From assembly GCF_030913635.1 (NCBI RefSeq), contig NZ_CP133188.1, forward strand, positions 3,162,001 to 3,226,000: 64,000 bases of DNA, written 5' to 3'. The DNA is from Sedimentibacter sp. MB35-C1. GTDB taxonomy: Bacteria > Bacillota > Clostridia > Tissierellales > Sedimentibacteraceae. Below are positions 5,655 through 42,609 of the stretch, piece after piece; position 1 is the first letter of the stretch; every line of letters begins with the position of its first letter. Position numbers and translations under genes: made by a program. The notes beneath the pieces were generated by a model that was not told the origin of the DNA, did no database searches, and was given only the letters and a program-made list of their open reading frames with translations.

Positions 5655-5898
5655 ATGAGAATTTATATACATCTTCTTGTGCAATTCCAAATCTTTATGT
5701 ATTCAAATACAAACTTGTAAGCCTGTTGGTAACCCTGAATTTTAAATCTATTTAGCCATTCTCGTTTAATTATGGCATAAAACGATTCAATGCAGGCATT
5801 ATTGCCATAATGAGTTCCTTCTTCTCTACGATACTTTCATTGTATCATACTTAATGTTTTTATTTAGGATTTTCTCATTTTGACTTGTACTTTTTATA
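5655..5898 (-). mobile_element. IS3-family insertion sequence, internal deletion remnant B
   Basis: The 97-bp upstream end (5898-5802) matches remnant A with one or two differences, then jumps at the shared bases TATGGCA straight into the C-terminal part of OrfB: YGNNACIESFYAIIKREWLN and IQGYQQAYKFVFEYIK, the terminal DDE glutamate region of IS3/IS150-type transposases. The deletion therefore differs from that in remnant A. Neither copy can encode a transposase. Confidence 0.75.
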
Positions 5899-5910
5899 CA
5901 CCACTTCAAG

Positions 5911-15781: not shown

Positions 15782-15813
15782 TATTTTTATTTCCTCTCTT
15801 TTATTAATTTGCT

Positions 15814-16950
15814 TTATACAAACATCTGTTGCAAAAGTCCCTTCTTTTGTTGCTGTAAATGCTCTAGCTTACGTTGATGAAAGGTGATAAGGGTGTCGAG
15901 ACTCTCTATAAAATCACCAATCTTTTTCTGTTCATTTAGGGAAGTGAACGGAATGTTTATAGTCTTCATTCCTACCATATCAATACTTCGCCCATCTCTA
16001 ATACCATATACATGTGGTTTTAGTTTAACATTTATAAAGTTATGAGATCTAAAATATGCATAATAAAAGCGAGAGTCTGCACCATTACCATGTAATGTAT
16101 GATAGGCTGGACTTATGATTCCAGTAAAATTCGATTTTTCTAATCCACCTTCAAATGATCTTAAATGAACTATGAAATCATCTTTTTCTACCATCTTATA
16201 ATTTAATAAACTTTTTTTATCAAATTGCAGATTTCTATCTGATTCATCTCTCCTTATTGTTCCCTTGCCTTGAATAATTGTTAGCGGAGGAAGTTCTTCA
16301 TGGTTCTTTTCCGAATATTCCTCAAAAACATCTCCTAACTTACGCTGTTCCCAAGGGTCAGCAAATCCTGGAAAACGAAGTTCTGGAAATTTTTCACCAT
16401 TTTTAGGAAACATTTTTTGCAACAAACCTCTCTTCTTATCTTGTAAGTGATTTAACTTACGCTGATGAAGGGTGATAAGGTTGTCAAAATTATGAAAGAA
16501 TTTGCCAATTTGAATTTTTTCTTCTTCTGATACCGGTAACGTCAATTTAAGCTCTTTCAGTTCACTAGCTTTAACTAGTGGTTGTCCGGTTCCAAAAGAT
16601 AATTTTTTGATATCAAAGTTCATAAGCATATAATAGGTAAAATCCAAGTTTTCACCCTGAATAAATACGGTATTATCGCTTATTTTAACCTTTCCAGAGT
16701 GCCTATATAATTCTCCTGCATTTGCTCCAACTCTGGCGGTTAGTAAAAAATCTCCCTCATAGTCATAGTTATTATCATATCCAATAACAGATGTTGAACC
16801 TAAGATTTCATATTTTCCATCATTTTTAGATGAAAACTTGCTTTTACCAGTATCAATAGAATTGGTTTCATCGCTCAACTTACGCTGTTCCCAAGGGTCA
16901 GTAAATCCTGGGAACCTTATTTTAGGTACATTCTCTTTATTATTATCCAT
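15814..16950 (-). CDS. hsdS: Type I restriction-modification specificity subunit HsdS
   Basis: 378 residues with two target-recognition domains. Each is introduced by FPGFTDPWEQRKL / FPGFADPWEQRKL and followed by a conserved helix, TLHQRKLNHLQDKKRGLLQ / TFHQRKLEHLQQQKKGLLQ, the spacer that sets the distance between half-sites. TRD1 spans about 25-170 and TRD2 about 220-345. The start is ATG 16950 with AGGAG seven bases upstream; a frame extension of eight codons lacks a ribosome site. It is full length, so it can specify a complete bipartite site without the half-S protein at 20233. Confidence 0.95.
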   Translation of the reverse strand: MDNNKENVPKIRFPGFTDPWEQRKLSDETNSIDTGKSKFSSKNDGKYEILGSTSVIGYDNNYDYEGDFLLTARVGANAGELYRHSGKVKISDNTVFIQGENLDFTYYMLMNFDIKKLSFGTGQPLVKASELKELKLTLPVSEEEKIQIGKFFHNFDNLITLHQRKLNHLQDKKRGLLQKMFPKNGEKFPELRFPGFADPWEQRKLGDVFEEYSEKNHEELPPLTIIQGKGTIRRDESDRNLQFDKKSLLNYKMVEKDDFIVHLRSFEGGLEKSNFTGIISPAYHTLHGNGADSRFYYAYFRSHNFINVKLKPHVYGIRDGRSIDMVGMKTINIPFTSLNEQKKIGDFIESLDTLITFHQRKLEHLQQQKKGLLQQMFV

Positions 16951-17026
16951 TTTATCTCCTATCTTAACTGTCAATTCATAGTTGACGGCTTAATAATTAA
17001 TTTTGAAAAGTATAATTAGATATAAT

Positions 17027-20000
17027 TTAACTTTCAGCCTGATCATCAGCCAATTCATAAATAGCCTCACGCAAACCGTTGCGGTACTTGATTCTAGATA
17101 AAGCCTGTATATCTTCGTCATGTGCTAATGTCTTGTAATCCAAGCTTGCTTTTGCAATTATATCTCGAATTTGGCCAGTATCATCTAAATCTTGCATACC
17201 ATAACGATGACAACTAAATAATTCGCGCATCTGAGCACTTGTGATAATATCTGTGATTCCCCACTTTACTCTAAAATCTAAGAATAGTCTATCAAGACTT
17301 ACATTGTTAGCCGCTTGAATAATTTCTTCACTATCGTTAAGATTTACTGGATATTTAAGATTAGTACCCTCCGGCGGATAATACCCTTTGATAATAGCCA
17401 TTGCTGCATTCATAATTTTCATAGCATAATTTCTATCTTCTAAACCATTGGCAAATTGATCAATTTTTTCTTTTGTAGTTTGTGCTTCTTGGTTCTTACC
17501 CTCATGTACTTGATTTAATAATTGTTCTACCAATTCAGTTAAATAATCATAATCTATTTTCACATCCTTAACATGAGTCATTTTTAACTCAATTTGATAA
17601 AAAGGAATTTTCTTTTCTTTTGATATATGTTGTTTAAGCTCATTGGTTAAAACTGTAGTAAGCATAGTTTCCTCTTCACTTGTCATGCCTAATTTTTCAA
17701 CTAACTCATCAGGATTTTCGTAATCAAAGCCTACTGCATTTCCATTAACTTCTTCAGGTGCATATTGTTTTAATTTAGCCACACCAACATTATAATCACG
17801 CAATAAATCAAGCATATGTTCTTTTTGCTTCTCAGAAGGTGGTAACTGTTGAAATTTATTAGTTAAACTGTCTAATTTCTTAACAACATCTTTAACTTCA
17901 TTAAATACCTCTTCAAAAGGTTTAGCAATAATTCCATCCTCTTGGTTAGATTTACGCTTCTCATCTTCTGATAAAATTGCAGAAGCTTTATTAGCATAAA
18001 TTGCAAGAGCTTGATTCATCAACTTCTCATTTTGAGCAGGCCAACGATAGTTTACAATACGCCCCCAAGGTTTTTCTTGCATATCAGCAATACGATTTGT
18101 TCTTGAATAAGCTTGAATAAGTCCAGCTCCTTTAAGTGTTCTATCAACATAAAGGGTATTAAGTTCTGGTGCATCAAATCCAGTCAAAAGTTGATCTACC
18201 ACAATCACAATATCTAGAAAGTTTTTATCTGTAGCTGTTTTATTCAGACGACTAGTAACATCTTGTGTATATCCTGCTACATCATCCATACCAAAGCTTG
18301 TACTAAACTCTTTGTTATAGGCTTTAATGGCATCATGTAAATTTTGATTAGTGGCAAGCATGCTATCATTATTGGATGAATTTTGGCTAAATGTAACTGC
18401 TACTTTTAATGTTCGTCCACCGTTTTTCCTATTTTCAGCATTTACTCGTTGAAATTCATTAAAATACATCATTGCCATTGGAGTACTAGCTTTCCCACCA
18501 CCAACATGAGTGGTAAAAAGTGCATTATATTTTCCTTCGTTTGAACGATTTCGCCAATTCTTGAAAATATCTTTAACTACTAACTTGATGTGTTCCGAAT
18601 TTTCATCATAAAAACTTGGTTCAACCGCATCATCCATATCCTCTTGACTTAGATTATTAATCTTCTCTTGAATTTGTTTTTCTGTCCACTTTGGATAGCG
18701 TTCTTTATAAAAACTTGGTAGATATTTTAATTTCATTTGTTTTTCATCAATCGTTGTTTCAAAATCTACTTTAAATCCCAAAACATTTCTATCTGCTATT
18801 GCTTCACGAATGGTATAGGCGTGTAACAATGGCCCAAAAATATCTTCAGTGCGTAAGCCATTAGTAGTTTCATCAAACATTGGTGTTCCCGTATAGCCAA
18901 CCCAAGCAGACTTCTTGAAAGCTTTTTGTATTTTTTCAAAACTTTCACCACCAGTTGAACGATGTGCCTCATCCACTATAAATACAATATTTTTATCAGG
19001 TGATTTAAAAGATTTACGTTTTACTAAAGTATCAAGCTTTTGAACAGAAGTAACAACAATATTATTATCTTTGCTCTTTAATTTACGACTTAAATCATTA
19101 GTATTATATGTATTCTGAACACTACCTATCATATCTTCATTAGCATCTGGATCATAGGCCCTATAATTTTCATTTGTTTGTTTTGTTAAAGCAATTCTAT
19201 CTACTAAGAATACAACTTTATCAACTTTTGGCATACGACTTGCAAGCCAAGCTGTTTTAAAACTAGTGATTGTCTTACCTGAACCAGTAGTATGCCAGAT
19301 ATACCCTACTTTATTTATACTAAGCTCAAAATCAACTCGTTTTAAATTTTCAATTACATTCTGGGTAGCATATACTTGATATGGACGCATTACCTTTAGC
19401 ATTTGTTTGTTTTTTGTACCATCCAAAATCATATAATTAGTAGCCATTTGATGTGCCATTGGAATACTTAACATTGAATCAGCAAACTCTTTCCAATTAC
19501 GTACAATCGTATTATCACTTTTACGTTGCCAGTTAAAAGCAAAGTCCTTATTAAACTTATCTGATGTGGTATTAGCCATATATTTAACGTTATTTGGTGT
19601 AATTGCCACCAATATTTGTAGAGTAGAAAAAATATCTCGATATTGATTTTCTTTGGAATATTGATGCATTTGATTTAGTGCTTCATTGACATCATGTGTA
19701 TCACGTTTTTCTTCAATTTGTATTATAGGTAGACCATTGATAAGAAGTGTCGTATCAAAACGACGATTTTGTTTTCCAGTGATAACTGCAGGACGTTCAA
19801 TCTGATTAACTACTTGATACACTGTATCTCCAGCACCAATTTGTTTTTGATCAAAAACTGTTAAGAACACGTGACGACCATCATCTAAATCAATTTCGAT
19901 TTGCGATACACCATTAAGTCCATATAAAAATTGTCCAGCTTCATATGGTGTTTGAATATTGGATATAATTTTTTTGACTTGATTAAATTCTACAGTACTT

Positions 20001-20236
20001 AAAGGATGATCAAGTGTATTTTGATTGTGCCTCTCAAGAATCTCTTTAAAGTTATCCCAAAGCTTTTCTGTAGTTTTAATTTTTGGTTCATACTTCCACA
20101 GTTTTGTTTTTATACAGTAATCAGCAGGTTTTTCTCCAACAATAAAATCGCTGATTCCTTCTAAGTGTTCAGGTTTAGTTATTGTTCCACTTGTAATATA
20201 CTGTATTAACTCAGTTTCAAATTTCTCTTCATTCAT
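17027..20236 (-). CDS. hsdR: Type I restriction endonuclease subunit HsdR
   Basis: 1069 residues. The N-terminal nuclease has FDTTLLINGLPIIQIEEKR, with the D...E-x-K motif near residues 161-177. The translocase motor follows with Walker A HTTGSGKT (about 315-322), the DEAH box VDEAHRS, motif III GYTGTP, and motif VI-like AYSRTNR. A C-terminal helical domain contacts HsdM. It translocates DNA and cuts when motors collide at distant sites. ATG 20236 overlaps the half-S stop (ATGA), with GGAGG about nine bases upstream. No frameshift was seen. Confidence 0.97.
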   Translation of the reverse strand: MNEEKFETELIQYITSGTITKPEHLEGISDFIVGEKPADYCIKTKLWKYEPKIKTTEKLWDNFKEILERHNQNTLDHPLSTVEFNQVKKIISNIQTPYEAGQFLYGLNGVSQIEIDLDDGRHVFLTVFDQKQIGAGDTVYQVVNQIERPAVITGKQNRRFDTTLLINGLPIIQIEEKRDTHDVNEALNQMHQYSKENQYRDIFSTLQILVAITPNNVKYMANTTSDKFNKDFAFNWQRKSDNTIVRNWKEFADSMLSIPMAHQMATNYMILDGTKNKQMLKVMRPYQVYATQNVIENLKRVDFELSINKVGYIWHTTGSGKTITSFKTAWLASRMPKVDKVVFLVDRIALTKQTNENYRAYDPDANEDMIGSVQNTYNTNDLSRKLKSKDNNIVVTSVQKLDTLVKRKSFKSPDKNIVFIVDEAHRSTGGESFEKIQKAFKKSAWVGYTGTPMFDETTNGLRTEDIFGPLLHAYTIREAIADRNVLGFKVDFETTIDEKQMKLKYLPSFYKERYPKWTEKQIQEKINNLSQEDMDDAVEPSFYDENSEHIKLVVKDIFKNWRNRSNEGKYNALFTTHVGGGKASTPMAMMYFNEFQRVNAENRKNGGRTLKVAVTFSQNSSNNDSMLATNQNLHDAIKAYNKEFSTSFGMDDVAGYTQDVTSRLNKTATDKNFLDIVIVVDQLLTGFDAPELNTLYVDRTLKGAGLIQAYSRTNRIADMQEKPWGRIVNYRWPAQNEKLMNQALAIYANKASAILSEDEKRKSNQEDGIIAKPFEEVFNEVKDVVKKLDSLTNKFQQLPPSEKQKEHMLDLLRDYNVGVAKLKQYAPEEVNGNAVGFDYENPDELVEKLGMTSEEETMLTTVLTNELKQHISKEKKIPFYQIELKMTHVKDVKIDYDYLTELVEQLLNQVHEGKNQEAQTTKEKIDQFANGLEDRNYAMKIMNAAMAIIKGYYPPEGTNLKYPVNLNDSEEIIQAANNVSLDRLFLDFRVKWGITDIITSAQMRELFSCHRYGMQDLDDTGQIRDIIAKASLDYKTLAHDEDIQALSRIKYRNGLREAIYELADDQAES

Positions 20237-20808
20237 CTTTCGCATACCTCCTCTAACTTGGATAATCTGATTTTTGTTTCAAGTTCTGCTGCTCTATTTC
20301 TAAGGGATTGTAGCTTTAACTGATTAAAATAAACTTGTCCTATAATTATTTGCTTATCTATGCAAGGTATTTTGGGTATTTCAAGCTCTTTAAGTTGCTT
20401 TAGAGTATATTTTAAAACTTGAGAGCCTTGCAGTCCCAGCATAAACTGTTTCTTGATTGTTTTATTTTCATTAATAAGATAAACCAAAAACTTTGAATCA
20501 ATTTTATTGTTAGGTAATAACTTAACGTAGTTTTGCGTATAAATATATCCCTCATGCTCTTTTCTTACTATTGTTGAAACTCCCGTGATTAAACTAAATA
20601 CTACATCACCATCGCACAAGGTATTTAATTTATCATTGGTCCTGACTTGTTTGTTGTCCACAGTTTTTGAAATAATTCCTACCAAATCATCTGTTAAATC
20701 TGTCTGACTATAATAAGTAAAAAGCGGTGTTTTTTCATCAAACACTTCAGTAATTCTAAACTGAGGCGATCCACTTACTAACTCAACTAATTCACTTAAC
20801 TTTTTCAT
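20233..20808 (-). CDS. Half-length HsdS-like specificity protein (single TRD)
   Basis: 191 residues: one target-recognition domain starting MKKLSELVELVSGSPQFR, with LGLQGSQVLKYTLKQLKELE and IPCIDKQIIIGQVYFNQLKL, typical of the TRD-to-helix transition in S subunits. Only one TRD and one conserved helix are present, against two in the HsdS at 15814. It is the first gene of the operon and overlaps hsdR by 4 bp. Half-S proteins can dimerise to recognise a palindromic bipartite site, so it may provide a second specificity, or it may be inactive. TRD type differs from the full HsdS. Confidence 0.85.
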   Translation of the reverse strand: MKKLSELVELVSGSPQFRITEVFDEKTPLFTYYSQTDLTDDLVGIISKTVDNKQVRTNDKLNTLCDGDVVFSLITGVSTIVRKEHEGYIYTQNYVKLLPNNKIDSKFLVYLINENKTIKKQFMLGLQGSQVLKYTLKQLKELEIPKIPCIDKQIIIGQVYFNQLKLQSLRNRAAELETKIRLSKLEEVCER

Positions 20809-30615: not shown

Positions 30616-31352
30616 TTATTGGTGATCTTGGTCAATAAGTTGGATTGACAATTTGCGGGACGGTTCTTTTTGATTGATGTAAAATATAAACTGACAATAA
30701 AAAAGCACGGTACATTTAATAAAACCATTTGCATCTAGTTCTTTTTGTAATTTACATAAATTTCCAAAACAAGCATCGACTGAAAATCCAGGAAATTCCC
30801 ATTCAATTATTTTTGCGAAATATACCAATGCACCTACATCATAAAAATACATTGGAGTAAATACTTCTCCAGATTTCAGTATTGTAAAACCATTGTTTTC
30901 CAGTTATCTAACATTGTTATCCAATGTATGATTTGGAAAAAAGCAATCTTTTTTTAATAAGTGACTTACTTCATAAGCATCAAACGATTCATAACGGTTG
31001 ATTATTATGTCAAAGGAATTATTCTCATAGGGCAATTTATCATCTTCATATACTTGTCTGACAGTAATTCCAAGTGGCTCAATGTTTTCTATGCATATTT
31101 TTACATTTGGTGGATATGCCTCAGTAACGTAAGTCAAGGCATATGGATGTTCAAGTGTTAGCACAAATTCTCCACCTCCAGTTCCCACATCCAAAATCTT
31201 ATCAGTATCTTTAAGAAACGATAAAACAATTGAATGATAATCCCAATGTAAATCCTCACTATCCCATCTATCATAATATATGAAAAATCCCATCCCTTGA
31301 ACGCATGTGCTTCTTCAGATTTCCACTTACTTCTTAACTCTTTTAAATTCAT
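30616..31352 (-). pseudogene. Class I SAM-dependent methyltransferase, broken
   Basis: Three pieces in order on the minus strand. The N-terminus MNLKELRSKWKSEEAHAFKG then WDFSY is in one frame (from 31352). A shift near 31280 leads to RWDSEDLHWDYHSIV, then ILDVGTGGGEFVL (SAM-binding motif I) and FDIIINRYESFD. A stop at 30904 follows, after which LENNGFTILKSGEVFTPMYF and GALVYFAKIIEWEFPGF continue in the same frame. So there is one frameshift, one stop and a probable internal deletion. It resembles methyltransferase_11/25 enzymes. Between 30513 and 30615 only an imperfect dyad and a GGGACGGTTC-type repeat are seen. Confidence 0.75.
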
Positions 31353-31620
31353 TATAACTACTCCTTTTATTTAGTATAAGCCGATAAACGGTGCAGTTAA
31401 CTGATAACAAATTTATTTATCCTCTGTGCAATCTGCTATAAGATTATACTAACTGCCCCGAGCAATTAATTAGCTGTATTCTAAAGACGAGTTCGCTCCT
31501 TTCAAAGATTATATTAATTTTCCCCAAATCAGAAAAATATTTTATATCTTATTCAACCTTCATTTACCCATTTTAACCTTGTCATCACTCAATTTAGCCT
31601 ATGTCATCTATAAATCACGC

Positions 31621-31665
31621 CAAAAATAGGGGTCAAAAAACGGTGTTTTTTGACCCCTATTTTTG
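31621..31665. terminator. Strong bidirectional terminator
   Basis: Perfect 21-bp arms, beginning CAAAAATAGGGGTC, with a 3-bp loop. It carries A and T runs within the stem, so it can terminate in both directions. It separates the broken methyltransferase from the defence island. The remainder of 31353-31620 shows no gene. Confidence 0.85.
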
Positions 31666-31707
31666 CTCCAAAATCATCCTCAAACCACTATATGTTTGAG
31701 CCAACTT

Positions 31708-31811
31708 CTACTTTTTGTCCTCTGAGCCACAATACGTCATCAGAATTATACTCTCAACGTGCCTTGAGTGTGTAAAAAAGATGTCGCATCCCTCTGGTAT
31801 ACCCTTGGCGG
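31708..31811 (-). repeat. RlmD-tail-like scar, copy 2 (right end of defence element)
   Basis: CTCAACGTG (31753-31761) and CCTTGGC (31803-31809), 41 bp apart. On the minus strand: AKGIPEGCDIFFTHSRHVES then IILMTYCGSEDKK and stop, like the C-terminus of RlmD/TrmA-family enzymes. Confidence 0.6.
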
Positions 31812-31864
31812 AAAGGTTGCAAGCAAACCGCAGGACGATAGTTCTCCCTTGTCCTCTTACTATG

Positions 31865-33670
31865 TTAATCTTGGTGTACTAAGCTTTCAGGCAACCATCT
31901 ATCTAGCCGATATTTAACATAGAATGCCATATTTTTTCGTTGGTTGTTATCTAAATATATAGACTTAATAAGGTTATGATAGATATTTTCTACTTTAGCT
32001 ATTACTTCTTGCGTGGATTGGGTTATTAAAGGTTGTACTTCTAAAATTACATCCGTAATATCTTCATATGGATCATAATACAGATTAAAGTGTTTGCATA
32101 TCTCTTTTAGATTTTGCTCAGCTACCTTAAAGCCTTCATCATATTCAACTATATTAGTAGGCTCGATATATGTAATAAATCGAATAAGTCTTTCGTTATG
32201 ACACAGTGCTTCTGAATGCAATGCTTGAGAATAGCGCAATAAGCATAGATCAGAAATTCGTTCGTTATGCTGAAAATACTTGTTAAAGATTCTTTGCTTT
32301 TCTATTATGTCTACTGGATTGCCATGTGGTAACTTATTAAAAAATTCTTCAGAATCAAAATTAAGCGCGTCCCATTCCTTCCATGTTGAGGTTCCTGGCA
32401 ACAATGTTCCGAAACTACCTGGTTCAAAAAACATATGAGAAATTACAATTCTATCTTTATCATCAGCAAGTTCTATAAAACGATAATTGCTTTCATTACA
32501 CCAACCTGCAATAGCACCAACTTCTACTGGACTATATTTAGAAATATCTAATATGCAAAAAGATTTGCTGTGTAAAGTATCCATCAGTTGAAAATCTGCT
32601 TTCCGGGTAAAAAATGAAAATCCAGTTGAAAAAACCTCTACCGCAAAATCGCCGCTGCTATGTACAAAAAATTCTTGATCATCTGATGTCGCTCGTACCT
32701 TCTCGCTATAAATATAGTTGGGGCTTAAATTATAAGTATAATCAAAATCTGAAACAATATTATTTCCAACTACAGAAAAACACGACCAATCCGTGATATT
32801 AGAAATTTTTCTATTATCTATTTCTGAAATTAATTCTACAGGGCTGATGATATATGATATCCATTCATTACCAGGTAAAGTCAATTTACTTCCAGCTATA
32901 AAGTCATTAACTTCTGTCCAAAACTGCTCAAGAGATTGAGCTTTGTTAGAGTATTCAATACCAGCATGAAAACTTCCAAGATTACAATTATGATATGAAG
33001 ATAAAAATGCTGGAAGCATATCAGCCATATGATATACAGCTTTTGCTTTAGTATTATTGTCTGAAACAATCTTATAAGTTTCCATTGAAGTGAAAAGTCT
33101 ATATCCAGGCATCCAAACAGGATAAATATTACATTGATATTTAGCTTTATCAATTTTATACATATTGTTATAATATAATTCTACTTGTTCCCTAATCCTT
33201 TGTACGCCACTGTTGTTAAAGGCATTGTTTAATTCTACTGAAATGCTTAAAGTTTCATTTTCTAAACCAGAGGTTTCAATTTGCTCTGTTGGAAAGCACC
33301 AGAATCCAGTGTCGCTTGAACTTTCCCACATAACTAAAACTACAGGATAATAGCTTTGCTCCCATATTTTTAAGAGACCCGTCGGCAAAGATATTGAAAG
33401 TCCTTTGGCTATTCTACGAATATATCCCTCTTTTTTTATATCTTCAGTTGTTTTTACTTGTGTTCTGAAAGAAAATTGTGTTCGTATACTTACTTTATTA
33501 TCCTTAGATAGAGAAAAAATATCACATAGTAAATCCTCGCCAAAATCAGAAGTTCCTAAAGGAGTGCAAACAATATTATTCTTTTGGTATATCAAATTTA
33601 CAGACAATTCGCCAATATTACCTGTAAAATAACTATTTAATGCTTTAACATCTTTACTCAACTTACTCAC
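31865..33670 (-). CDS. DUF4365-type nuclease-like protein in the defence island
   Basis: 601 residues. The first 130 resemble DUF4365, a PD-(D/E)XK-like domain: FTGNIGELSVNLIYQK (E21), SDFGEDLLCDIF (D46) and FRTQVKTTED (Q71-x-K73), a plausible active site. The remaining 470 residues match nothing I recognise; they are mixed alpha/beta without membrane segments. The start is GTG 33670 or TTG 33661. It lies downstream of the Kiwa pair and may be an independent effector. A nuclease role is inferred from the N-terminal motif only. Confidence 0.65.
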   Translation of the reverse strand: MSKLSKDVKALNSYFTGNIGELSVNLIYQKNNIVCTPLGTSDFGEDLLCDIFSLSKDNKVSIRTQFSFRTQVKTTEDIKKEGYIRRIAKGLSISLPTGLLKIWEQSYYPVVLVMWESSSDTGFWCFPTEQIETSGLENETLSISVELNNAFNNSGVQRIREQVELYYNNMYKIDKAKYQCNIYPVWMPGYRLFTSMETYKIVSDNNTKAKAVYHMADMLPAFLSSYHNCNLGSFHAGIEYSNKAQSLEQFWTEVNDFIAGSKLTLPGNEWISYIISPVELISEIDNRKISNITDWSCFSVVGNNIVSDFDYTYNLSPNYIYSEKVRATSDDQEFFVHSSGDFAVEVFSTGFSFFTRKADFQLMDTLHSKSFCILDISKYSPVEVGAIAGWCNESNYRFIELADDKDRIVISHMFFEPGSFGTLLPGTSTWKEWDALNFDSEEFFNKLPHGNPVDIIEKQRIFNKYFQHNERISDLCLLRYSQALHSEALCHNERLIRFITYIEPTNIVEYDEGFKVAEQNLKEICKHFNLYYDPYEDITDVILEVQPLITQSTQEVIAKVENIYHNLIKSIYLDNNQRKNMAFYVKYRLDRWLPESLVHQD

Positions 33671-33759
33671 CCGCCTTTTATTATTTTGTATCTAAGATAT
33701 TTTTGATATTTCATAAACACCAAATAGGTAAAGCCTTAACTATTGATGAAACCTAATAT

Positions 33760-33985
33760 TTATTCTACTGGTTTATAGTCCAATTTTACAATATAATTAG
33801 ACAATACATTCTGTATACCTTGAGGAGACAAAATGATGCCATAGGGAGTTGGTAGCCTCCTTGCAGTGTAATATCTTTTATGAATAATTGACTCTGAAAT
33901 CTTTTTTTCAAAGATTTTGCTTCACCAATAAAAAGCAATATCACCAATATTCTGCTCCACTTTCCTTGCTGCTTTTATTTTCACT
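33760..33985 (-). pseudogene. Gene fragment between kwaB and the DUF4365 gene
   Basis: On the minus strand a frame ends ESIIHKRYYTARRLPTPYGI then ILSPQGIQNVLSNYIVKLDY and stop at 33760. Upstream the sense seems to continue in another frame (KWSRILVILLFIGEAKSLKK). This looks like the C-terminus of a frameshifted gene of unknown family, filling most of the 397-bp gap. Confidence 0.35.
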
Positions 33986-34067
33986 TAGTTTCTAATTGCA
34001 CGCAATAAAACTTTCAAATATAGTGCCTTTTAAAAACTTTATAAGGCACTATATATATAATTATTTT

Positions 34068-35057
34068 TTAGATTTTATTTATGTCATCTTTTGATCCTGA
34101 AAGATATTTACTTGATGTTAGTTGAGAATATAAGAACGAATCATCCAACAGTTGCAAAAAGACTGTTCTTGACACTTTAGTATCAAGCTTAATATATTGT
34201 CCTGATTCATCGAATTTAAATTTTTTCTTTAATGTTTCATCATAGGTATCGATAAAATTAATTATATCTTTTTTATCACATTTTCTTAATACCACAGATC
34301 TTGAAGCTACTTTCACCACTTTTCTCGCAAAACTCACATCGTTTATTCCTTGTTCTAGCTTAGTAATATCTTGCACCAAATCAAGCACACCAATTTCGTG
34401 AATACTCTCGATTGCTTTCTTTTTGACAACTTCGACAAAACCGAATTTTGATTCTAACTTTTTCAAGTCCTTCACAAATAACTCTCCCTCAACCACCATA
34501 AAGTCAAAGTCATAGTTTAGTCTAAAAATTGAATCATCAAATTCCTTTAACTGATTAGAACCTGTAAGCAATATATTGATTTTCTCTGAAGGCTTTTCAC
34601 CTGTATTCTTTTTTACCATCATAACTTCATAATTTTCTTTGTATAAAGTAACTCGAATATTTTTATGTACATATGCAAATATAAAACCTTTAATTTCAGA
34701 TAGCTTGTCCTTCTTTATATCATACTCTTGTACTGAAGTTTCAGTTTGAACAGAATTGATTAGTTCAAACTCTTGAATAGGTTGCTCATAATCGTACTTG
34801 TACAGAACATCTTTTCTATCATCAGCCTCTGTGAGTCCCATTATCTTTAGCTCATCATTTAATAAATAATTAACAGTATGTCTGTAAAAATTTTCTGTTA
34901 ATTTTACTTGTGTCCCTGCATCCAAATCTCCTTTTCTTATCTCTAAACGATCATCTTTTTTTAACAAGAAAAAGAGTTCTCCATTTACCTTGTTAACTTC
35001 AATCTTCTGTATTAAATTTAATAATTTTGTACGACTATTAGTGCTGTTTTCACTCAT
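34068..35057 (-). CDS. kwaB: Kiwa anti-phage system protein KwaB (DUF4868)
   Basis: 329 residues, the length typical of KwaB. The DUF4868 core is visible in the region FRLNYDFDFMVVEGELFVKD followed by LKKLESKFGFVEVVKKKA, and in VSFARKVVKVASRSVVLRKC. In Kiwa, KwaB is the cytosolic DNA-binding effector that works with the membrane protein KwaA against phage. The start overlaps the kwaA end by 8 bp (AAGGAGAAGG upstream), showing a two-gene operon. The pair was recognised from domain family plus arrangement. Confidence 0.88.
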   Translation of the reverse strand: MSENSTNSRTKLLNLIQKIEVNKVNGELFFLLKKDDRLEIRKGDLDAGTQVKLTENFYRHTVNYLLNDELKIMGLTEADDRKDVLYKYDYEQPIQEFELINSVQTETSVQEYDIKKDKLSEIKGFIFAYVHKNIRVTLYKENYEVMMVKKNTGEKPSEKINILLTGSNQLKEFDDSIFRLNYDFDFMVVEGELFVKDLKKLESKFGFVEVVKKKAIESIHEIGVLDLVQDITKLEQGINDVSFARKVVKVASRSVVLRKCDKKDIINFIDTYDETLKKKFKFDESGQYIKLDTKVSRTVFLQLLDDSFLYSQLTSSKYLSGSKDDINKI

Positions 35058-35643
35058 GTACCTTCTCCTTCACAAAAAATATTTCATCATCTATTTGCAA
35101 ATATTCCAATTTACTATTCTGTTTAATTTTATCTCGTGTAATTAAAATGCAACTTTCATGTACTTTTTCGTCTCTAAGTTCTACATCTGCTTCATAAAGA
35201 TGATATCCCAAGATTGCTAATGTTGGATTCGTGTAGTATATGTCAGTCTTTACATAAATAATTGCAATGACGATAAGAAGCAATAAGAGTACCAGCGTAT
35301 AGCGAAATTTGGATAAATCAAAACATATTAAGGGGATGATATATGTAGTTAAGAAAGTTAAATGTTCATAAGTCTTATTTTTTATCTTCTTTATCTCAAA
35401 ATACTCCTGTGTACCAGAAGATATCTTATGGTTAAAAGTTTTTATAAATGTTGTACTTATTCCTAACATTATAATACTTATACAAGGAATAATATTTCTT
35501 TTTAAAAGTGGGACTAATCCTATAAAACTAGCTTCTTTGCTAAAGTCAATCGGAATATCGACATTGACTACAATTAGCATTAAAAAAAGAAGCCATAATG
35601 ATGATAAATACATTTGAAATTTCATCCAAGTATTCTTATACAC
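35050..35643 (-). CDS. kwaA: Kiwa anti-phage system membrane protein KwaA
   Basis: 197 residues with four hydrophobic segments (about 12-28, 43-64, 95-108 and 113-131), then a soluble C-terminal domain of 60 residues, the KwaA layout. The start is GTG 35643, with GGAGG six bases upstream. KwaA senses phage at the envelope and signals to KwaB, its 8-bp-overlapping neighbour. Sequence identity to characterised KwaA proteins is likely low; the call rests on the partner, size and topology. Confidence 0.82.
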   Translation of the reverse strand: MYKNTWMKFQMYLSSLWLLFLMLIVVNVDIPIDFSKEASFIGLVPLLKRNIIPCISIIMLGISTTFIKTFNHKISSGTQEYFEIKKIKNKTYEHLTFLTTYIIPLICFDLSKFRYTLVLLLLLIVIAIIYVKTDIYYTNPTLAILGYHLYEADVELRDEKVHESCILITRDKIKQNSKLEYLQIDDEIFFVKEKVHE

Positions 35644-35755
35644 TTACGTCCTCCTTTAATATATTCTATAAATTTGATAGCAAGTTTTATCCTCTTGGAC
35701 TTATGTTTACTCCATCTACAGAAATTCAATATCTTTATGAGATTGCATGTTAAGC

Positions 35756-37084
35756 TTATTTCAATGTGTCTCTTACAAAATCTTGAAGTATTTTTGCAGA
35801 TGGATAATTAGACATGGAGGCGATTCCGTTCACCAACTCTATTGGATATAGTGCCCCCTCATATTTTCTGCTTACTAACGATGGCAATGTAGCCAATATT
35901 CTACCTAATCCCATTATATCTTCTGATTTAGGAAAATCTGAGGATGAAATATATTCACCCGGCGACATATTTAAGACCATTTGAGTGTTTTTATCTAATA
36001 TGACAAATACTTTTTCTCCATAATTAGTTCTTGAACCATAAGGGTTTATATGTTCAGGTGCCCGTTGAATTTCTTTTCTAATATAATCATGACTTAATAC
36101 GGCATATTTAATTTCTCCATCATTTAATGGTATAAACCTTTCTATCGTATGTAAATAATCAAAGTACTTTCCTGATTTTTCACACCCCATTATATGTATA
36201 GGACGCCCTATCCGTTTAGCATGATCAAGAAAATTTCTTATACAAGGAACCAATTTAGCATATTGTCCACCAAGTGTCATCGGACCATCCTTGATATATA
36301 ATGTTTCCGACACAAGATTTTTATCTTTGCTTTCCCAATGTAAACGAATAACTGTGAATAGCATTAACGTTTCCATTATCATCATGTACGAGGATGCAAC
36401 AGTTACAGGAGCACTATCCTCGCTCATATCTAAATGAAAACCTATCATATCCGTGAGAAGAACTTCTTTACCGCAGAATTTACAGTTATCTACATCCTTA
36501 TCATAGCCTATGCCATCATCTATTTTGAGTCCGCAATGTGGACATTGAAAATCTGGCGAGTTTTTATGAACCATATTCCATTTTTCATATACAAGCCACT
36601 TCAATGTCTCAAAATATAATCCTTGTTCTTCAATTTTAATTGAGTCAAAAATAGAATGTCTTACAGTATCATATATGTTTCCCTTACCGCTTTTAATGTT
36701 TTTTAAAGGAAAGACAGTTGAGTGAAAAAGTGCACTATTCTTCATAATATCTTGGAGCTGTAATGGGTGCGGAAATTCTTTATCTATTTTTGCGATTTTG
36801 GATTGCTCGATAGTCATCAATGCAGTTTTAACAAACGCAACTTCTTTATTGTTCTCCTGCACAGGAACATATGAACCATCAACTACCCAAATGTGCTGAA
36901 GCACTTTTTCTTTATTTCTGTCATATGTATCCCATATACTATCATTTATATCACTACCCAAACCTAGATCGTCAATTTCAAAATCATCAATTAATGATTT
37001 TACCCATTCGCTTTCGATAACATTTAGATGTCCTAATTTTGAAGCAGATTCAAAAGGCAACCTATTTCCAGCTGAATACGCCAT
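35756..37084 (-). CDS. NurA-like nuclease with inserted zinc ribbon
   Basis: 442 residues. NurA-family nucleases use conserved aspartates; here WVVDGSYVPV (D69-G-S71) and YIKDGPMTLGG (D266-G-P) match the first and second metal-site motifs. A zinc ribbon, C181-P-H-C184 and C201-K-F-C204, is inserted between them, which classical archaeal NurA lacks. The gene starts 3 bp after the HerA stop. HerA-NurA pairs resect or degrade DNA. Next to a DNA adenine methylase this suggests self/non-self DNA discrimination. C-terminal segment (about 400-442) is unassigned. Confidence 0.75.
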   Translation of the reverse strand: MAYSAGNRLPFESASKLGHLNVIESEWVKSLIDDFEIDDLGLGSDINDSIWDTYDRNKEKVLQHIWVVDGSYVPVQENNKEVAFVKTALMTIEQSKIAKIDKEFPHPLQLQDIMKNSALFHSTVFPLKNIKSGKGNIYDTVRHSIFDSIKIEEQGLYFETLKWLVYEKWNMVHKNSPDFQCPHCGLKIDDGIGYDKDVDNCKFCGKEVLLTDMIGFHLDMSEDSAPVTVASSYMMIMETLMLFTVIRLHWESKDKNLVSETLYIKDGPMTLGGQYAKLVPCIRNFLDHAKRIGRPIHIMGCEKSGKYFDYLHTIERFIPLNDGEIKYAVLSHDYIRKEIQRAPEHINPYGSRTNYGEKVFVILDKNTQMVLNMSPGEYISSSDFPKSEDIMGLGRILATLPSLVSRKYEGALYPIELVNGIASMSNYPSAKILQDFVRDTLK

Positions 37085-37087
37085 GAT

Positions 37088-39070
37088 TTATTCCCCTTTC
37101 TTAGGTTGATATAACTTTGCATATACAGGGATAACAAACCTATGTGACATTGTGAGCATTCTCATGTATCCAGGAGTTCTTGACCTTAAAATATCTTCCT
37201 CTATTCCCGAAAAAGCTATCTGCATTCTTGTTAATGCCTTTGTTTCATCCTGAGAAGATAAATGTCCTACAAAGAAATTTTCTGTTTGTACTAAAAGTTC
37301 TCTATTTATTGTAGATGGTGATTGAGTAGAATAAACCATTCCAATATGGAATTTTGCTCCTTCTTTTGCAAATCTTGAATAAACATCTGTTAAATCTTTA
37401 GATTCAGGTGGAAAAAGATTGTGTGCTTCTTCAAAATATAATTGAATATAACTATCACCAAGTTTATTTTCAACAAATTTTCTTTCTTGAGCTGAGAATA
37501 TTTCCTGAGAAAGTATATCTGAGAAATATTTTCTAATACGATCTGTTGCATTTCCCAAATCTAATATAACGGTTTTACCAGCATTCAATAATTTAACAAT
37601 ATCGGTTAAAAAATCGGTTGCTTGTGATGAATGGTATTCTTTATATTTCGCCAATACAATTGGCCCACTACTGCCTGTGGAGGGAAATAAGAAATTAAGT
37701 AAGGCCCAGTCTTCTTTATCAAAAAGAGGTTCCTTATCACTATTGGGAAGTTGATCATTACTTTCTCTTATGTAATTAACAAATATCCGGAGCTCTTGAA
37801 CTAGCTCAGGCAACGTAATAGGTTGTTTAGGAACATTACCCTTATACGCTTTGTTTCTAAAGTCTTTATTAAAATGAGGCTCAAGAGGCTTTATATAATT
37901 ACATACCAATCCACTTGCTTTAAGTCTTTTTTCATCCGCTTTAAAACCAGCTTCAAATAATATTGCCCAATATATTTGTATTCTTCTAATTGCTCTCGTT
38001 TTATCACCATTATCAGAAATAGTTTTTATTTCTTCAAAAGAGGGTAAGGTTACACTTGAAAAATTATTTATATAGTTTGAATTTTTATTATCCTCTTTTA
38101 GGAATCCACTCAGTATATCTTTGCAAGTATCTGGATTTTCATAAAAATTCAATTTTAATTGCTTAGAAGGTGTTTCTGCTCGTGGAGTCAACGCATAGAC
38201 ATCACACCTATCCCTATTGGCAGAATAAATTGAAGAGTTTCCATCTTGATTATTGTCATTTGCGTATTCACCATTAGTATCAAAAATGAGTTGGCCTACA
38301 TTTTTAGTTTCTGCTGTAGCATCTAACATACCCTGTGCAAGTAGCTTTACAACATTAGATTTACCTAGCCTTGTTTTTCCAAACATTGCCGTTCTACAAC
38401 CCATAAAATCTTTCATAGAAATATCTACAGGAATATTTTCGGAAGCTTGTTCTTCAACCCCAAATTGACATTCCATTGTGCGTAATTTTCCTATATTCTC
38501 CCTAAACTCTGTTTTAACAGTTCCATTAACTATGATATTAAGTAGTTCTTCGTCCGGTGCATATACTTCATATCGATGTGGACTTACTATATTATTTACA
38601 TCTCCTGAAAAAGCAAGCTTATCTACATTAAATGGGTCTGCATAAAACATTCCCAGAACATCACATTCAAGTGCTCCCCATTGCAAATCAGACTGTGTCC
38701 ATAAATCAAGTTCTGGCATAGATCGCTTATGCATTTCAAAATAAGTCTGTTGTACTTGAGCAGTTAATGGTGTAGGAGCAATACCTTTTACCCGTAGCAA
38801 TGTAAAATGTGATTTAGTTTGCTTATAATTTGATGGAAGTAAAATCAAATAAGAGCCTCTTGGTATCCCTCCAACTTCCATCTTATATGTGTCATTAGTT
38901 ATTATTTTAGCTCCATTATAGCCTAATTCTAATACATAACCCACAAAACGCCATTTACCATATTCATTCGCGATTTTATACTTTTCTTGCCTCTCCATAA
39001 ATTCCTTTACTTTTGTAATAGGATTATTCTCTACATTTGAACTGTCAACCAAATTTTGTAACCCTGCCAT
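37088..39070 (-). CDS. HerA-like ATPase/DNA translocase
   Basis: 660 residues. An N-terminal beta-rich domain of about 200 residues (HAS-barrel-like position) precedes the FtsK/HerA core: Walker A MFGKTRLGKSNVVKL (G231-S238), LIFDTNGEYAND just after it as in HerA, VILDLGNATD, and Walker B IQLYFEEAHNLFPP near residue 560, followed by YSTQSPSTINRELL, the sensor segment. HerA forms hexamers that pump DNA into an associated nuclease. The NurA-like gene follows after 3 bp and the methylase precedes by 18 bp, so the three form one operon. Confidence 0.9.
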   Translation of the reverse strand: MAGLQNLVDSSNVENNPITKVKEFMERQEKYKIANEYGKWRFVGYVLELGYNGAKIITNDTYKMEVGGIPRGSYLILLPSNYKQTKSHFTLLRVKGIAPTPLTAQVQQTYFEMHKRSMPELDLWTQSDLQWGALECDVLGMFYADPFNVDKLAFSGDVNNIVSPHRYEVYAPDEELLNIIVNGTVKTEFRENIGKLRTMECQFGVEEQASENIPVDISMKDFMGCRTAMFGKTRLGKSNVVKLLAQGMLDATAETKNVGQLIFDTNGEYANDNNQDGNSSIYSANRDRCDVYALTPRAETPSKQLKLNFYENPDTCKDILSGFLKEDNKNSNYINNFSSVTLPSFEEIKTISDNGDKTRAIRRIQIYWAILFEAGFKADEKRLKASGLVCNYIKPLEPHFNKDFRNKAYKGNVPKQPITLPELVQELRIFVNYIRESNDQLPNSDKEPLFDKEDWALLNFLFPSTGSSGPIVLAKYKEYHSSQATDFLTDIVKLLNAGKTVILDLGNATDRIRKYFSDILSQEIFSAQERKFVENKLGDSYIQLYFEEAHNLFPPESKDLTDVYSRFAKEGAKFHIGMVYSTQSPSTINRELLVQTENFFVGHLSSQDETKALTRMQIAFSGIEEDILRSRTPGYMRMLTMSHRFVIPVYAKLYQPKKGE

Positions 39071-39088
39071 AATAATTCCTCCTTCAAA

Positions 39089-39895
39089 TCATATATTAGC
39101 ACTTACTATTAATTCGTTATATTGTTGTCGGCCTCTAGCCAAACCAGAAATTGAACTATATCTATTAGCCTCTGCCAAATAATAGCCTTCCACATTTTCA
39201 TACAATGCTCGGACAGCTGGGTGATTGACATTTGTCATAATGATCTTTACATTTCTATCTTTTGCTCTATGAAGTGATTGAGCTAATCTAACTTGATCAT
39301 TCCAATTAAATAGCTGGGCAGTATAATTAACAAACCTATTATTTTCATCTTGTACTGAATATGGAGGATCACAAAACAAAAAGTCCTCTGCCTCTGCCAT
39401 GTCAATGATTTCTTCAAAATCCTGACAAAATATTTGTGCATTTTGTAAAATTGCTGATCGTTGTTCAAAATTATCAGTACTTAGTATCACGTTATTATGA
39501 GTACCTATTGGTACATTAAATCCCCCGCTCCTATTTACTCTATATATCCCGTTAAAGCAAGTCCTATTTAAATAAATCATTCTTGCAGCTATTGTAGCTG
39601 GTGTTCTAGGACGCATAGAACGTATTTGATAATAATACTCTTGGCTGTGACGTCTACTATGAACTACTAAAGCTCTTTCTACCCTTTGCCAATCATCTCG
39701 TATCGCAGAAAATGTCGTAATTAATTCTCGATTTATATCATTTATTATTGCAATAGGTGGCTCTAAAAAAAAATATAACGAACCTCCGCCCAAAAATGGA
39801 TCTATGTATCTATGATATTGTGCTGGAAGTCTATGTTGTTCATGACTTATAAACCAATTTTTTCCTCCTGCCCATTTTAAAAATGTTTTATCCAT
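39089..39895 (-). CDS. D12-class DNA adenine methyltransferase (Dam type)
   Basis: 268 residues. Motif order fits D12 N6-adenine methylases: FLKWAGGKNWF and DPFLGGGSLYF (SAM site), IINDINRELI, YLNRTCFNGIYRVNRSGGFN (family signature), and the catalytic FCDPPYS. It would methylate adenine in a short site. As first gene of the methylase-HerA-NurA operon it may mark host DNA. The ribosome site is weak (AGGAG 12 bases before ATG). It has no frameshift and normal length. Confidence 0.93.
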   Translation of the reverse strand: MDKTFLKWAGGKNWFISHEQHRLPAQYHRYIDPFLGGGSLYFFLEPPIAIINDINRELITTFSAIRDDWQRVERALVVHSRRHSQEYYYQIRSMRPRTPATIAARMIYLNRTCFNGIYRVNRSGGFNVPIGTHNNVILSTDNFEQRSAILQNAQIFCQDFEEIIDMAEAEDFLFCDPPYSVQDENNRFVNYTAQLFNWNDQVRLAQSLHRAKDRNVKIIMTNVNHPAVRALYENVEGYYLAEANRYSSISGLARGRQQYNELIVSANI

Positions 39896-39956
39896 ATTGA
39901 TAATAGGCTCCTAAATTCGATTGAAAATAAAAAATCTTCATCAAATATACTTCCTT

Positions 39957-40199
39957 TCATAAACTATTTTCTTTCCTGTATTTTTGTTGCCCTGAAGAAG
40001 TCTTTTCAATAGATACAACACATATGTCATTCGATTTAATATAATTTAGAAATAAGGTGCCTAACAGTAGCCGATTACTACGTGATATTCGATTCCATTC
40101 ATAGCCTTTAAAAAGATCACGAAGCAAAAATACTTCACCTGATTTAAGATTCTTTATTTCATCTTTCGCAGTTTCTAACAACTCATTAGCATTCTGCAT
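39957..40199 (-). CDS. DUF1413 family small protein
   Basis: 80 residues from ATG 40199 (GGAGGT six bases upstream). The DUF1413 pattern is clear: NLKSGEVFLLRDLFKGYEWN, then RLLLGTLFLNYIKS and KTSSGQQKY. These proteins are frequent on mobile elements and near plasmid genes; function unknown. It lies between the serine recombinase remnant and the methylase. The frame could be extended by 13 codons but without a ribosome site. Confidence 0.8.
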   Translation of the reverse strand: MQNANELLETAKDEIKNLKSGEVFLLRDLFKGYEWNRISRSNRLLLGTLFLNYIKSNDICVVSIEKTSSGQQKYRKENSL

Positions 40200-40287
40200 A
40201 AGTGTACCTCCAAAACAGAATAACATTATAAACAACATTGTTATTCTAATTGTATAACTTTTCCTGTTTCATTTCAACATTAAAATA

Positions 40288-41582
40288 TTATTTCAGACAC
40301 ATATCTACAGAACATTTGATGCTGTGTTTGTTTTCATTCCTGCAACATATTTCTAAATGCTCATTAAAAATCAAAATCTTTACGACATTATTTCTAACTA
40401 TCCCTTCATTATATGTGCTATTCTCACAAACTATTTCGCCTAAAGCTTTCTGAATCCACTCCTCATTCAATGTGGGAGAATCAGCACACATTTCTTTCCC
40501 TTTCTCAATTCTTGTAGAACATCTCCAAACTACCTTACCTCTTTCCGTTCGCCTCCGGTAAGATGCCCCGCAATCACCACACACAAGCAAATTTCCCAAA
40601 AGATATTTGCCATTATATTTGCTGGTGCTGGATTCCATTGTGCCATCTTCTTTACGGACTAGCCTTGCGCGTCTAGACATTTCTTCCTGAACCTTATCAA
40701 ATACTTCGGCAGTAATAATAGCCGGATGACTATTCTTTATATAGTTACGTTCTCTTTGACCAGCATTTTTGCTTTTGCTTCCTGTTATAAAATCTTCCGT
40801 ATAGGTCTTCTGTAATAAAGAATCACCCTTATATTTCTCATTCTTCAGTATCTTTTGAATAACAGCTGTTGCCCATGCTTCTTTCCCTGTAGCAGTTTTA
40901 ATCTGATGTTCTTCCAGATACTCTTTTATTTGTTGCAGTGTGCTGCCTTCCAAATACAACTGATAGATTTTCTTCATCATATAGGCTTCTTCCGGCACGA
41001 TCATCCATTCATCATTGTCACGCTTGTAGCCCATAGGTATTTTGCCTACAAAGTCATCCCCGCTTTCAAATTTGCGTTTGTATCCCCATTGAACCTTTTC
41101 GCTTAAATTCCTGCTCTCTTCCTGTGCTAAAACTCCATTAAATGCAATATCTATTTCTTTTTCTGCTTCAAGTGAATTTAAATCTTCCTTTTCAAAATAT
41201 ATATTTATACCTTTTGCTTTTAACTTCGGTTAATAGTTAACGTATCTAACACATTTCTGGACAATCTGCTGATAGACTTGGTAATGATATAATCAATTTC
41301 ACCACGATATGCCTTCTTAAGCATAGTATCCAAACCATTCCGTTTCTCTTTTTTAAGCCCACTTTCATAATTATAAAACACGCCTGAAAGTTCCCATTCA
41401 GAATTCTTTTGAATCAAATCGGTATAATACCTGATTTGAATGTCTATACTGCTTCGCTGACTTTCACGCTCGGTACTGACCCTGCAATATGCCGTAACCT
41501 TTAGTTTTCCGATATTCTTTAAAGAGCTTCTTGCGGGAATAAACGTAATCTTTTTCAAAATCATATCCTCCTTCACATTCAA
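40288..41582 (-). pseudogene. Large serine recombinase (TndX/TnpX type), frameshifted
   Basis: The N-terminal resolvase domain (41582-41220) has VTAYCRVSTERESQRSS, with the catalytic serine of RVS, and YIITKSISRLSRN with the conserved arginines. It then hits a stop after LDTLTINRS. The sense resumes in another frame as LKAKGINIYFEKED and continues through the recombinase domain (IPMGYKRDND...), the zinc ribbon CGDCGASYRRR...CSTR and a short C-terminus. One missing base near 41223 explains the break. This would be the integrase of the defence-bearing element, now inactive unless suppressed. Confidence 0.85.
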
Positions 41583-41612
41583 ATCTTTTTAGTGACTTAA
41601 TAATATAGAAAT

Positions 41613-41872: not shown

Positions 41873-42609
41873 TTATACTTTCTGCTGCAACAGGACTACA
41901 ACCTCTGTATGCCCAGTACCCGGGAACATATCAACAGGTACTGCTGTCTTTGCTTCATAGCCCCTTTTTGTGAAATAGGCTAAATCTCTTTCTAATGTGA
42001 CGGGGTTGCAGGAAATATAGACTATCTTTTTGGGATTGATTGAAATCATCGAATCTAAAAACTGCTCCGTGCTACCTGACCTTGGAGGATCTAGGAATAC
42101 AACGTCTGCTGATTGCTTTTCGCTGGCCATCTGATTCATAAATTCGCCGGCGTCACAGTTGTAGAAAAATATATATTTTTTGATTTATTTCTTTTTGCAT
42201 TTGTTATAGCTTCCTTGAAAGCATCTCTGTTAAGTTCGACTCCAAGTACTTTTTTTACATGGTCTCCTGCAATTATTCCGATTGTGCCTATTCCGCAATA
42301 GGCTTCTATTACAGTTTCACTTCCCTTAAGCTCCGCAAGCTCGATTGCCTTTCCATAAAGAATTTCTGTCTGGACGGGATTAATCTGGTAAAATGATTTT
42401 GGGGAAATTCTAAAAACTTTTCCGCACAGAGTATCCTCTATGAATCCTCTGCCGTACAGTACCTGTTCTCTTTCTCCCAATACCATGCTTGTTTTTTTAT
42501 TGTTAACATTCATTACTATTGTTGTAATTTCAGGATGTTTTTTTAAGAGCGCTTTGATAAAATTGTTCTTTGAAGGGAATATGTGTGAGGCAAGCACCAA
42601 CACAACCAT
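41873..42609 (-). pseudogene. RlmD-type 23S rRNA (uracil-5-)-methyltransferase, N-truncated and frameshifted
   Basis: The family is clear: ITTIVMNVNNKKTSMVLGER, FRISPKSFYQINPVQTEILY, VIEAYCGIGTIGI (SAM motif), VVFLDPPRSGSTEQFLD with the DPPR motif, IVYISCNPVTLERDL with the catalytic cysteine, and the C-terminal VDMFPGTGHTEVVVLL. The first 200 or so residues (TRAM domain and Fe-S cysteines) are absent upstream of 42609, and the frame shifts near 42150 between NIYF and YNCDAGEFM. A scar of the same family tail lies right at the truncation point (42624-42715). Confidence 0.85.

Follow-up and report, generated by a model that had tools for sequence, protein, structure and literature searches.

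The window analysed here, a 64,000-nucleotide stretch of the genome of Sedimentibacter sp. MB35-C1 (NZ_CP133188.1, positions 3,162,001 to 3,226,000), carries three neighbouring genes for a DNA adenine methylase, a HerA-type ATPase and a NurA-type nuclease. We think it likely that this trio is a methylation-guarded, ATP-driven restriction-modification (R-M) system, a cousin of the Tdp type of Thermus that lies outside R-M types I to IV. An earlier reading of the window (the sequence-only reading) had proposed a methylation-guarded DNA-translocating nuclease outside these types, and the comparative evidence still fits this idea best. The genes are as follows:

39089-39895, minus strand: D12 Dam-family N6-adenine methylase of 268 amino acids (aa), the proposed self-mark, with predicted GATC specificity.
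37088-39070, minus strand: HerA/TdpA-like DNA-translocase ATPase of 660 aa, the proposed motor.
35756-37084, minus strand: NurA/TdpB-like nuclease of 442 aa with a zinc-ribbon insert (C181, C184, C201, C204), the proposed cutter.

The open reading frames (ORFs) are separated by 18 bp (methylase-HerA) and 3 bp (HerA-NurA), and these minus-strand coordinates bear out the close spacing originally reported.

In the Tdp system, TdpC makes a phosphorothioate mark, and TdpAB uses ATP to translocate, cut and so degrade DNA that lacks it; TdpA is reported to grip phosphorothioate-bearing DNA less firmly. The restriction of DNA without phosphorothioate by TdpC-TdpAB of Thermus was reportedly described by An T et al. 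in Nat Chem Biol in 2025. TdpC-TdpAB (PDB 8wet and 8wfd) has a HerA-type motor and a NurA-type nuclease in common with the trio and its chains rank first in the fold comparisons of the window HerA and NurA alike, but its mark is phosphorothioate made by TdpC, whereas a DNA methylase takes that place here. When the ten ORFs at 30904-41582 were scanned for families against PADLOC, Pfam and NCBIfam, no sulfur-transfer family was matched at the listed thresholds, and a D12 methylase was found instead.

The window HerA matches PF01935 in Pfam (E 1.2e-12). Its top sequence match in the PDB is TdpA (E 2e-26; runner-up 2.2e-8), which is again first when the HerA family profile is used (6e-39; runner-up 5.2e-21). 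The six best Foldseek matches of its AlphaFold model (predicted local distance difference test [pLDDT] 70.6, predicted template modelling score [pTM] 0.69) are all TdpAB chains, TdpA by size, with E values from 1.8e-22 and an identity to TdpA of approximately 20% in the fold alignment. Walker A K237 and Walker B E547/E548 are kept in 25 of 25 family members. The PADLOC model mad8 also matches the window HerA (5.1e-10; other HerAs of the family reach 5.6e-13), but is outscored by generic PADLOC HerA models (3.5e-21).

The nuclease was less readily recognised: the window protein alone matches no NurA model in PADLOC, Pfam or NCBIfam. It does, however, align over its full length with proteins annotated as NurA, and eight of 14 aligned family members match PF09376 (best E 2.2e-21). 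Its best fold model (pLDDT 73.3, pTM 0.79; the remaining four models have pLDDT 57-58) is closest to chain G of TdpAB 8wfd, which we take to be TdpB (E 1.6e-8, template modelling scores 0.52/0.62), followed by the NurA proteins of Thermococcus, Pyrococcus and Sulfolobus. Identity in the TdpAB fold alignment is approximately 10%, and sequence-profile searches of the PDB with NurA gave no convincing match; the likeness to TdpB emerged from the fold search. Both fold models (HerA and NurA) are of moderate quality, with 8 and 10 underlying sequences.

The active-site residues that had been named for the trio are largely retained: NurA D69 in 25/25 and D266 in 23/25 proteins, alongside HerA K237 and the DPPY motif of the methylase (this set of 25 takes in five same-lineage duplicates). 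The zinc ribbon inserted in NurA is likewise real, and the identification as NurA stands through family relatives and fold. The ribbon is a trait of the family, with C181 kept in 22/25, C184 in 15/25, C201 in 23/25 and C204 in 22/25; the idea that it is special to the window locus was therefore rejected. Five NurAs scanned against PADLOC-DB 2.0.0 gave no match beyond a weak one to PDC-M04B (0.0015), and a search of the window genome with the window protein found one copy of NurA.

PADLOC, Pfam and NCBIfam label the methylase as Dam-family/type II, with strong matches to PF02086 (E 4.6e-47) and TIGR00571 dam (230.4 bits; cut-off 114.85). Its best PDB match is M.DpnII-1 (2dpm, 164.4 bits), and both its DPPY motif and its hairpin NRTCFNGIYRVN..FNVPIG align with the DpnII and E. 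coli Dam methylases, both GATC enzymes. We accordingly predict GATC as its target from homology. GATC methylation is proposed as the guard because of this hairpin alignment and because the window has few GATC sites: 95 are observed at positions 1-64000 against 185 expected under the Markov model (a ratio of 0.51), and no 4-base palindrome is rarer, CTAG being level with GATC. This is a weak indication drawn from one window.

The sequence-only reading treated the trio as a unit that should act together, and the comparative survey supports this. We screened the window and 30 further loci with methylase, HerA and NurA profiles; an ORF was counted as adjacent if it was the nearest one of 200 aa or longer. 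The same-lineage duplicates L002, L008, L009, L041 and L044 were set aside, as was L035, which has no core ORF of 100 aa, leaving 25 loci. The short hit loci (L001, L004, L005 and L012-L027) and L003, L039 and L040 stood outside the count; a later screen found a NurA part only in L003, nothing in L039 and a short NurA-like ORF in L040. HerA and NurA belong to one distinctive family whose two members keep together, and a DNA methylase adjoins them in 21 of the 25 loci (the window, L007, L010, L011, L028-L034, L037, L038, L042, L043, L045-L047, L049, L050 and L052), or in 19 of 23 without L042 and L043, the methylase of L043 being identical to that of L030 and that of L042 very close to that of L031. 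The loci with no adjacent methylase are L006 (a cyanobacterial plasmid), L036 (decayed), L048 and L051 (where the sequence ends inside NurA). Where HerA and NurA are both complete and uninterrupted, 16 of 18 loci have an adjacent methylase; outside these 18 are L007 (HerA split), L028 (HerA truncated), L036, L042 and L043 (decayed), and L051 and L052 (sequence ends). Counted per ORF, methylase-profile matches fall on 21 of 45 adjacent and 6 of 149 non-adjacent ORFs (Fisher p 6.7e-11), a value that overstates the association because the profiles were built from adjacent methylases, type I methylases (such as one in L029) are missed and the loci of one clade share ancestry.

The adjoining methylases are of several types. 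Dam-like D12 enzymes are found in the window and in L045, L046 and L047 (the latter 43-50% identical to that of the window), and D12 enzymes of another branch (PF02086) in L010, L029, L030, L031, L034 and L037. Methylases of PF01555 occur with an SPPY motif in L007, L011, L032 and L033 and with SPPF in L028 and L038. The methylase gene may lie before, after or convergent to HerA-NurA. The methylase type is thus exchanged while HerA-NurA stays, and different methylases in one role would point to their shared product, methylated DNA, as what matters.

This exchange bears on a different arrangement, in which HerA-NurA, once triggered by infection, would degrade DNA of every kind, and the methylase would serve as a brake or sensor and not as the maker of a self-mark. 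Other HerA systems reportedly do couple HerA to an effector in defence (PMC12948488; PMC11291478), and several loci adjoin defence genes, which also favours the guarded R-M reading: Kiwa in the window, type I R-M and a UvrD/Gabija-like helicase in L029, an AlwI-kind type II enzyme in L030 and SoFic in L032. An exchange of methylase types would nevertheless fit a shared product better than a protein-protein brake, and we regard such abortive defence as improbable.

The methylation-guarded R-M reading could operate as follows. The Dam-family methylase would methylate host DNA at the predicted GATC sites. HerA, judged from its conserved motifs and fold to be a TdpA-like ATPase ring, would load on double-stranded DNA and pump it to the TdpB/NurA-like nuclease, where it would be cut. 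Methylated DNA would resist loading, pumping or cutting, and unmethylated phage or plasmid DNA would be degraded; this last step, the least certain, is drawn by analogy with the weakening of TdpA's grip on DNA by phosphorothioate.

Several observations weigh against this interpretation, in addition to the overstated enrichment noted above. The Pfam scan of the trio found no recognition or methyl-reading domain. In L048, the sole D12 methylase lies 2.1 kb off on the opposite strand. D266 is replaced by N in L038 and by S in L050, two of the 16 complete loci with an adjacent methylase (the L038 NurA has a masked stretch). The cyanobacterial plasmids L006, L008 and L009 carry a conserved XRE-HerA-NurA set without a methylase neighbour. 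For the Nostoc and Tolypothrix plasmids, the parts that were read contain no annotated DNA methylase, although PLSDB annotation is incomplete, and an unspecified 'methyltransferase domain' protein is encoded 7 kb away in L008. The XRE regulator of these plasmids may play the part that the C protein has in R-M systems. The decayed loci L003, L035 and L036 hold pieces of NurA without a methylase, and the methylase outlives the nuclease in two of five decayed loci. Finally, absence of the methylase from a related operon on the mobile element ICETh1 has minor effects on DNA transfer, and the mutant appears in a strain list (PMC7767461; PMC5365140). The restriction-methylation enzyme of ICETh1 could hide the effect of methylase loss.

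The decayed loci also include a pattern of the opposite kind. Genome G958 has three copies (L041, L042 and L043), of which one is intact; L042 and L043 retain an intact methylase, have lost HerA and keep only the C-terminal part of NurA, as would follow if the danger to the cell lay in the nuclease. Taken as a rule, 'the methylase always outlives the nuclease' was rejected on the count of two in five. L003 (9821-10684) holds a C-terminal NurA half that is 71% identical to that of the window, in an ORF that opens with a different stretch of approximately 60 aa; no HerA or methylase match was found at this locus.

The ICETh1 operon of Thermus thermophilus (Tth111II-NurA-TdtA-TTC1880) serves DNA donation, according to PMC5365140 and PMC7767461. 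This raises the alternative that the HerA-NurA of the window pumps and trims DNA for export, as TdtA-NurA does, with the methylase protecting or marking the transferred DNA. As in the trio, a NurA, a HerA-family ATPase and an N4/N6 methylase share one operon on a mobile element (architecture alone was compared). NurA, TdtA and the PF01555 methylase are reported to be co-transcribed, and mutation of nurA to lower donation by 4-5 orders of magnitude (PMC5365140); the window locus also adjoins a recombinase. ICETh1 differs from the trio in its type IIG enzyme, its gene order and a methylase that is nearly dispensable for transfer. The type IIG enzyme is also needed by ICETh1, and the family scans of the ten ORFs picked up neither such an enzyme nor any transfer gene. 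Relatives occur, moreover, in phage records and viral contigs. Donation is an unlikely function for the window locus, if the least improbable of the alternatives considered.

Given ICETh1 and Tdp, the view that the trio was without characterised precedent does not hold: the TdpAB subunits are closest to the motor and nuclease, and a NurA-TdtA-N4/N6-methylase operon has been described (PMC5365140). A text search of the literature recognised no methylase-HerA-NurA defence system among the matches listed; coverage of subscription papers was small, and absence is unproven. The terms HerA and NurA are both absent from a 2025 R-M review (PMC12707154). The components are each familiar and two related systems have been published; the trio resembles Tdp in its proposed working but lacks a match for TdpC.

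Comparison with other systems supports a position outside types I to III in particular. No HsdR, HsdM or HsdS match was found for the trio (type I); a methylase is present and no restriction-enzyme model matches the trio (type II); and in place of the Mod and SF2-helicase Res of type III there are a D12 methylase and a HerA-class ATPase. Filing the trio under types I-III was therefore rejected on the PADLOC, Pfam and NCBIfam scans. Type IV systems cut modified DNA and have no cognate methylase, so the methylase in the operon argues against this type. R-M systems of the DpnII kind have a related Dam-family methylase with the same predicted GATC target, but the partner in the trio is a motor with NurA and no site-specific enzyme.

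Among defence systems with HerA, Sir2-HerA (Nezha) and DUF4297-HerA share the combination of HerA with an effector, and their HerA folds rank below TdpA. Their effector is Sir2 or DUF4297, and they are not known to have a methylase guard; family scans of the ten ORFs matched neither partner, and the partner in the trio is NurA-like. MADS, the methylation-associated defence system, is touched by the weak mad8 match of the window HerA; the remaining mad models find nothing in the trio, and the weak match to mad2 falls elsewhere, at 30904-31293. The methylase of L029 is close to PADLOC PD-Lambda-5_B (7.6e-115), whereas that of the window matches it at 1.5e-10 only; the part of PMC9519451 available on PD-Lambda-5 mentions no HerA or NurA.

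The HerA-NurA family is patchily distributed. The NurA profile (nine members) matches 12 of 398 phylum genomes at E 1e-3, and the HerA profile (13 members) matches eight of 398 at E 1e-40, all within the NurA-positive 12. The HerA profile was built mostly from these same loci, and seven of the eight genomes matched are profile members, so that the informative part is that no such HerA was found in further genomes. The other four NurA-positive genomes hold two decayed copies (G790 and G791) and two weak partial matches (G803 and G872). Searches with single proteins found three of 391 class genomes and one of 199 relatives, the latter being the window's own genome. Seven of 391 genomes of the window's own class were positive, four of them with weak partial matches, and class samples around other carriers gave 4/37, 1/22, 3/59, 1/72, 1/10 and 1/20. 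Weak NurA matches were seen in G1027 and in G136, G201, G242 and G283. A genome-contig scan returned L002 and L003 alone.

On plasmids, the window NurA matches four records and two other NurA queries match five each, counting their own source where this is a plasmid. The window HerA matches 59 plasmid records, of which five also have NurA (four at 80% coverage or more, and a Deferribacter copy split by an insertion); coverage in the remaining HerA matches is at most 31%. NurA is found in two near-identical Vibrio phage records, and IMG/VR contributed eight loci; viral-contig scans with single NurA proteins found no relatives. The loci with an adjacent methylase span bacteria, a phage, plasmids and a haloarchaeon. 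The HerA and NurA trees have the same main groups and differ inside them, and where one of the two family members goes the other tends to go as well. In the viral contig L049, XRE-like and ImmA/IrrE-like ORFs (by eye) lie at 5085-6052, just upstream of a methylase-HerA-NurA trio.

HerA and NurA are also the two protein families of the archaeal pair (NurA of Thermococcus, Sulfolobus and Pyrococcus), which is not known to be methylase-linked. The trio could accordingly be a DNA repair pair of the archaeal kind with the methylase as a passenger, as the NurA family and fold and the HerA motifs and fold would allow. Such a role is at odds with the patchy spread (eight of 398 phylum genomes, and one of 199 relatives), with the methylase adjacent in 21 of 25 loci and with the family scans, in which none of the ten ORFs matched mre11 or rad50. 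A 2026 study doubts an end-resection role even for archaeal HerA-NurA (PMC12977600). We consider a repair function very improbable.

The trio is flanked by the following genes:

34068-35057, minus strand: kwaB (Kiwa), 329 aa, NCBIfam NF041623 (282.1 bits; cut-off 200), a neighbour judged to be outside the trio.
35050-35643, minus strand: kwaA (Kiwa), 197 aa, NCBIfam NF041622 (214.7 bits; cut-off 100), a neighbour judged to be outside the trio.
39957-40199, minus strand: small DUF1413 protein of 80 aa if counted from the likely ATG, PF07205 (E 1.7e-22), a possible first gene of the operon.
40288-41582, minus strand: serine recombinase in two ORFs (40288-41034 and 41220-41582), PF07508, PF13408 and PF00239, the probable mover of the island.

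The adjacent kwaA and kwaB genes expected of Kiwa are thus both present at 34068-35643, overlapping by 8 bp. The pair had been correctly placed after the trio; the gap between NurA and kwaA is 112 bp and not the 113 bp first given. The DUF1413 ORF as listed is 93 aa from 40238. The transcription unit may begin one gene earlier than the methylase, at the DUF1413 gene: one of four 10/12 minus-strand promoter-like matches sits just upstream of it, although the region holds no more matches of this kind than chance would give. DUF1413 has no match in L045-L047.

A second copy of the island (L002) was found in Clostridium sp. Marseille-P2415. DNA identity to the window is 96.9% over 35174-40207, 92.7% over 40205-41584 (the recombinase) and 88.6% over 31791-33742 (the DUF4365 gene). 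The L002 trio is complete, with protein identities of 95.5% (methylase), 98.3% (HerA) and 98.4% (NurA), and its DUF1413 protein is an 80-aa ORF that is 97.5% identical. Across the 21,326 bases of L002 compared, there is no match for kwaB or for the end of kwaA, and the truncated kwaA runs into the DUF4365 region. The ratio of nonsynonymous to synonymous substitution rates (dN/dS) between the two copies is 0.111 for the methylase, 0.066 for HerA and 0.084 for NurA, against 0.413 for kwaA (first 156 codons). The trio is kept by selection, and its tie to Kiwa is loose.

The question had been raised whether Kiwa and the trio work jointly, and the shared strand and short spacing would suit a single system. 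The near-identical L002 trio without kwaB and the end of kwaA, the kwaA dN/dS and the lack of a Kiwa match in the other loci screened all speak against this. A blastp search with the window KwaA and KwaB (E 1e-3) gave no match in those loci, though a divergent Kiwa could escape it. The joint system was rejected on the L002 losses, and we find it the hardest of the alternatives to credit.

The L002 recombinase is a single 464-aa ORF, in contrast to the two ORFs of the window, and since the flanks of the L002 island do not match the window the island seems to be mobile. Two ORF pieces at 41873-42609, adjoining the recombinase, resemble a 23S rRNA uracil methylase (RlmD/RumA-like, by eye) and are a possible insertion site. 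On the other side, 31865-33670 encodes a 601-aa DUF4365 protein (PF14280) with a weak PADLOC match to an Argonaute-linked nuclease (5.7e-5); it is retained beside the trio in L002 at 84% protein identity and is possibly another defence nuclease. Elsewhere in the window, ORFs at 14192-20808 are like a type I R-M system by size and start (hsdM, hsdS, hsdR and a second hsdS-like piece), a pemK cis-regulatory RNA lies at 58126-58222 (RF02913, 68.7 bits), and the GC content climbs from approximately 33% to 50-55% toward 59-64 kb.

Beyond the window itself, we tentatively suggest, at a little short of an even chance, that there is a separate class of R-M systems in which one HerA-NurA translocating nuclease is combined with swappable modifiers, with marks ranging from phosphorothioate to N6-adenine and N4/N6 methylation. 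The motor, in place of a recognition domain, would sense the mark, and the class would unite Tdp and the methylase-linked operons in bacteria, archaea and phages. How one motor-nuclease without a visible recognition domain could discriminate methylated from unmethylated DNA thereby becomes a testable question. If the proposal is true, restriction by a mark-reading DNA pump would be a general strategy with exchangeable marks, extending beyond phosphorothioate.

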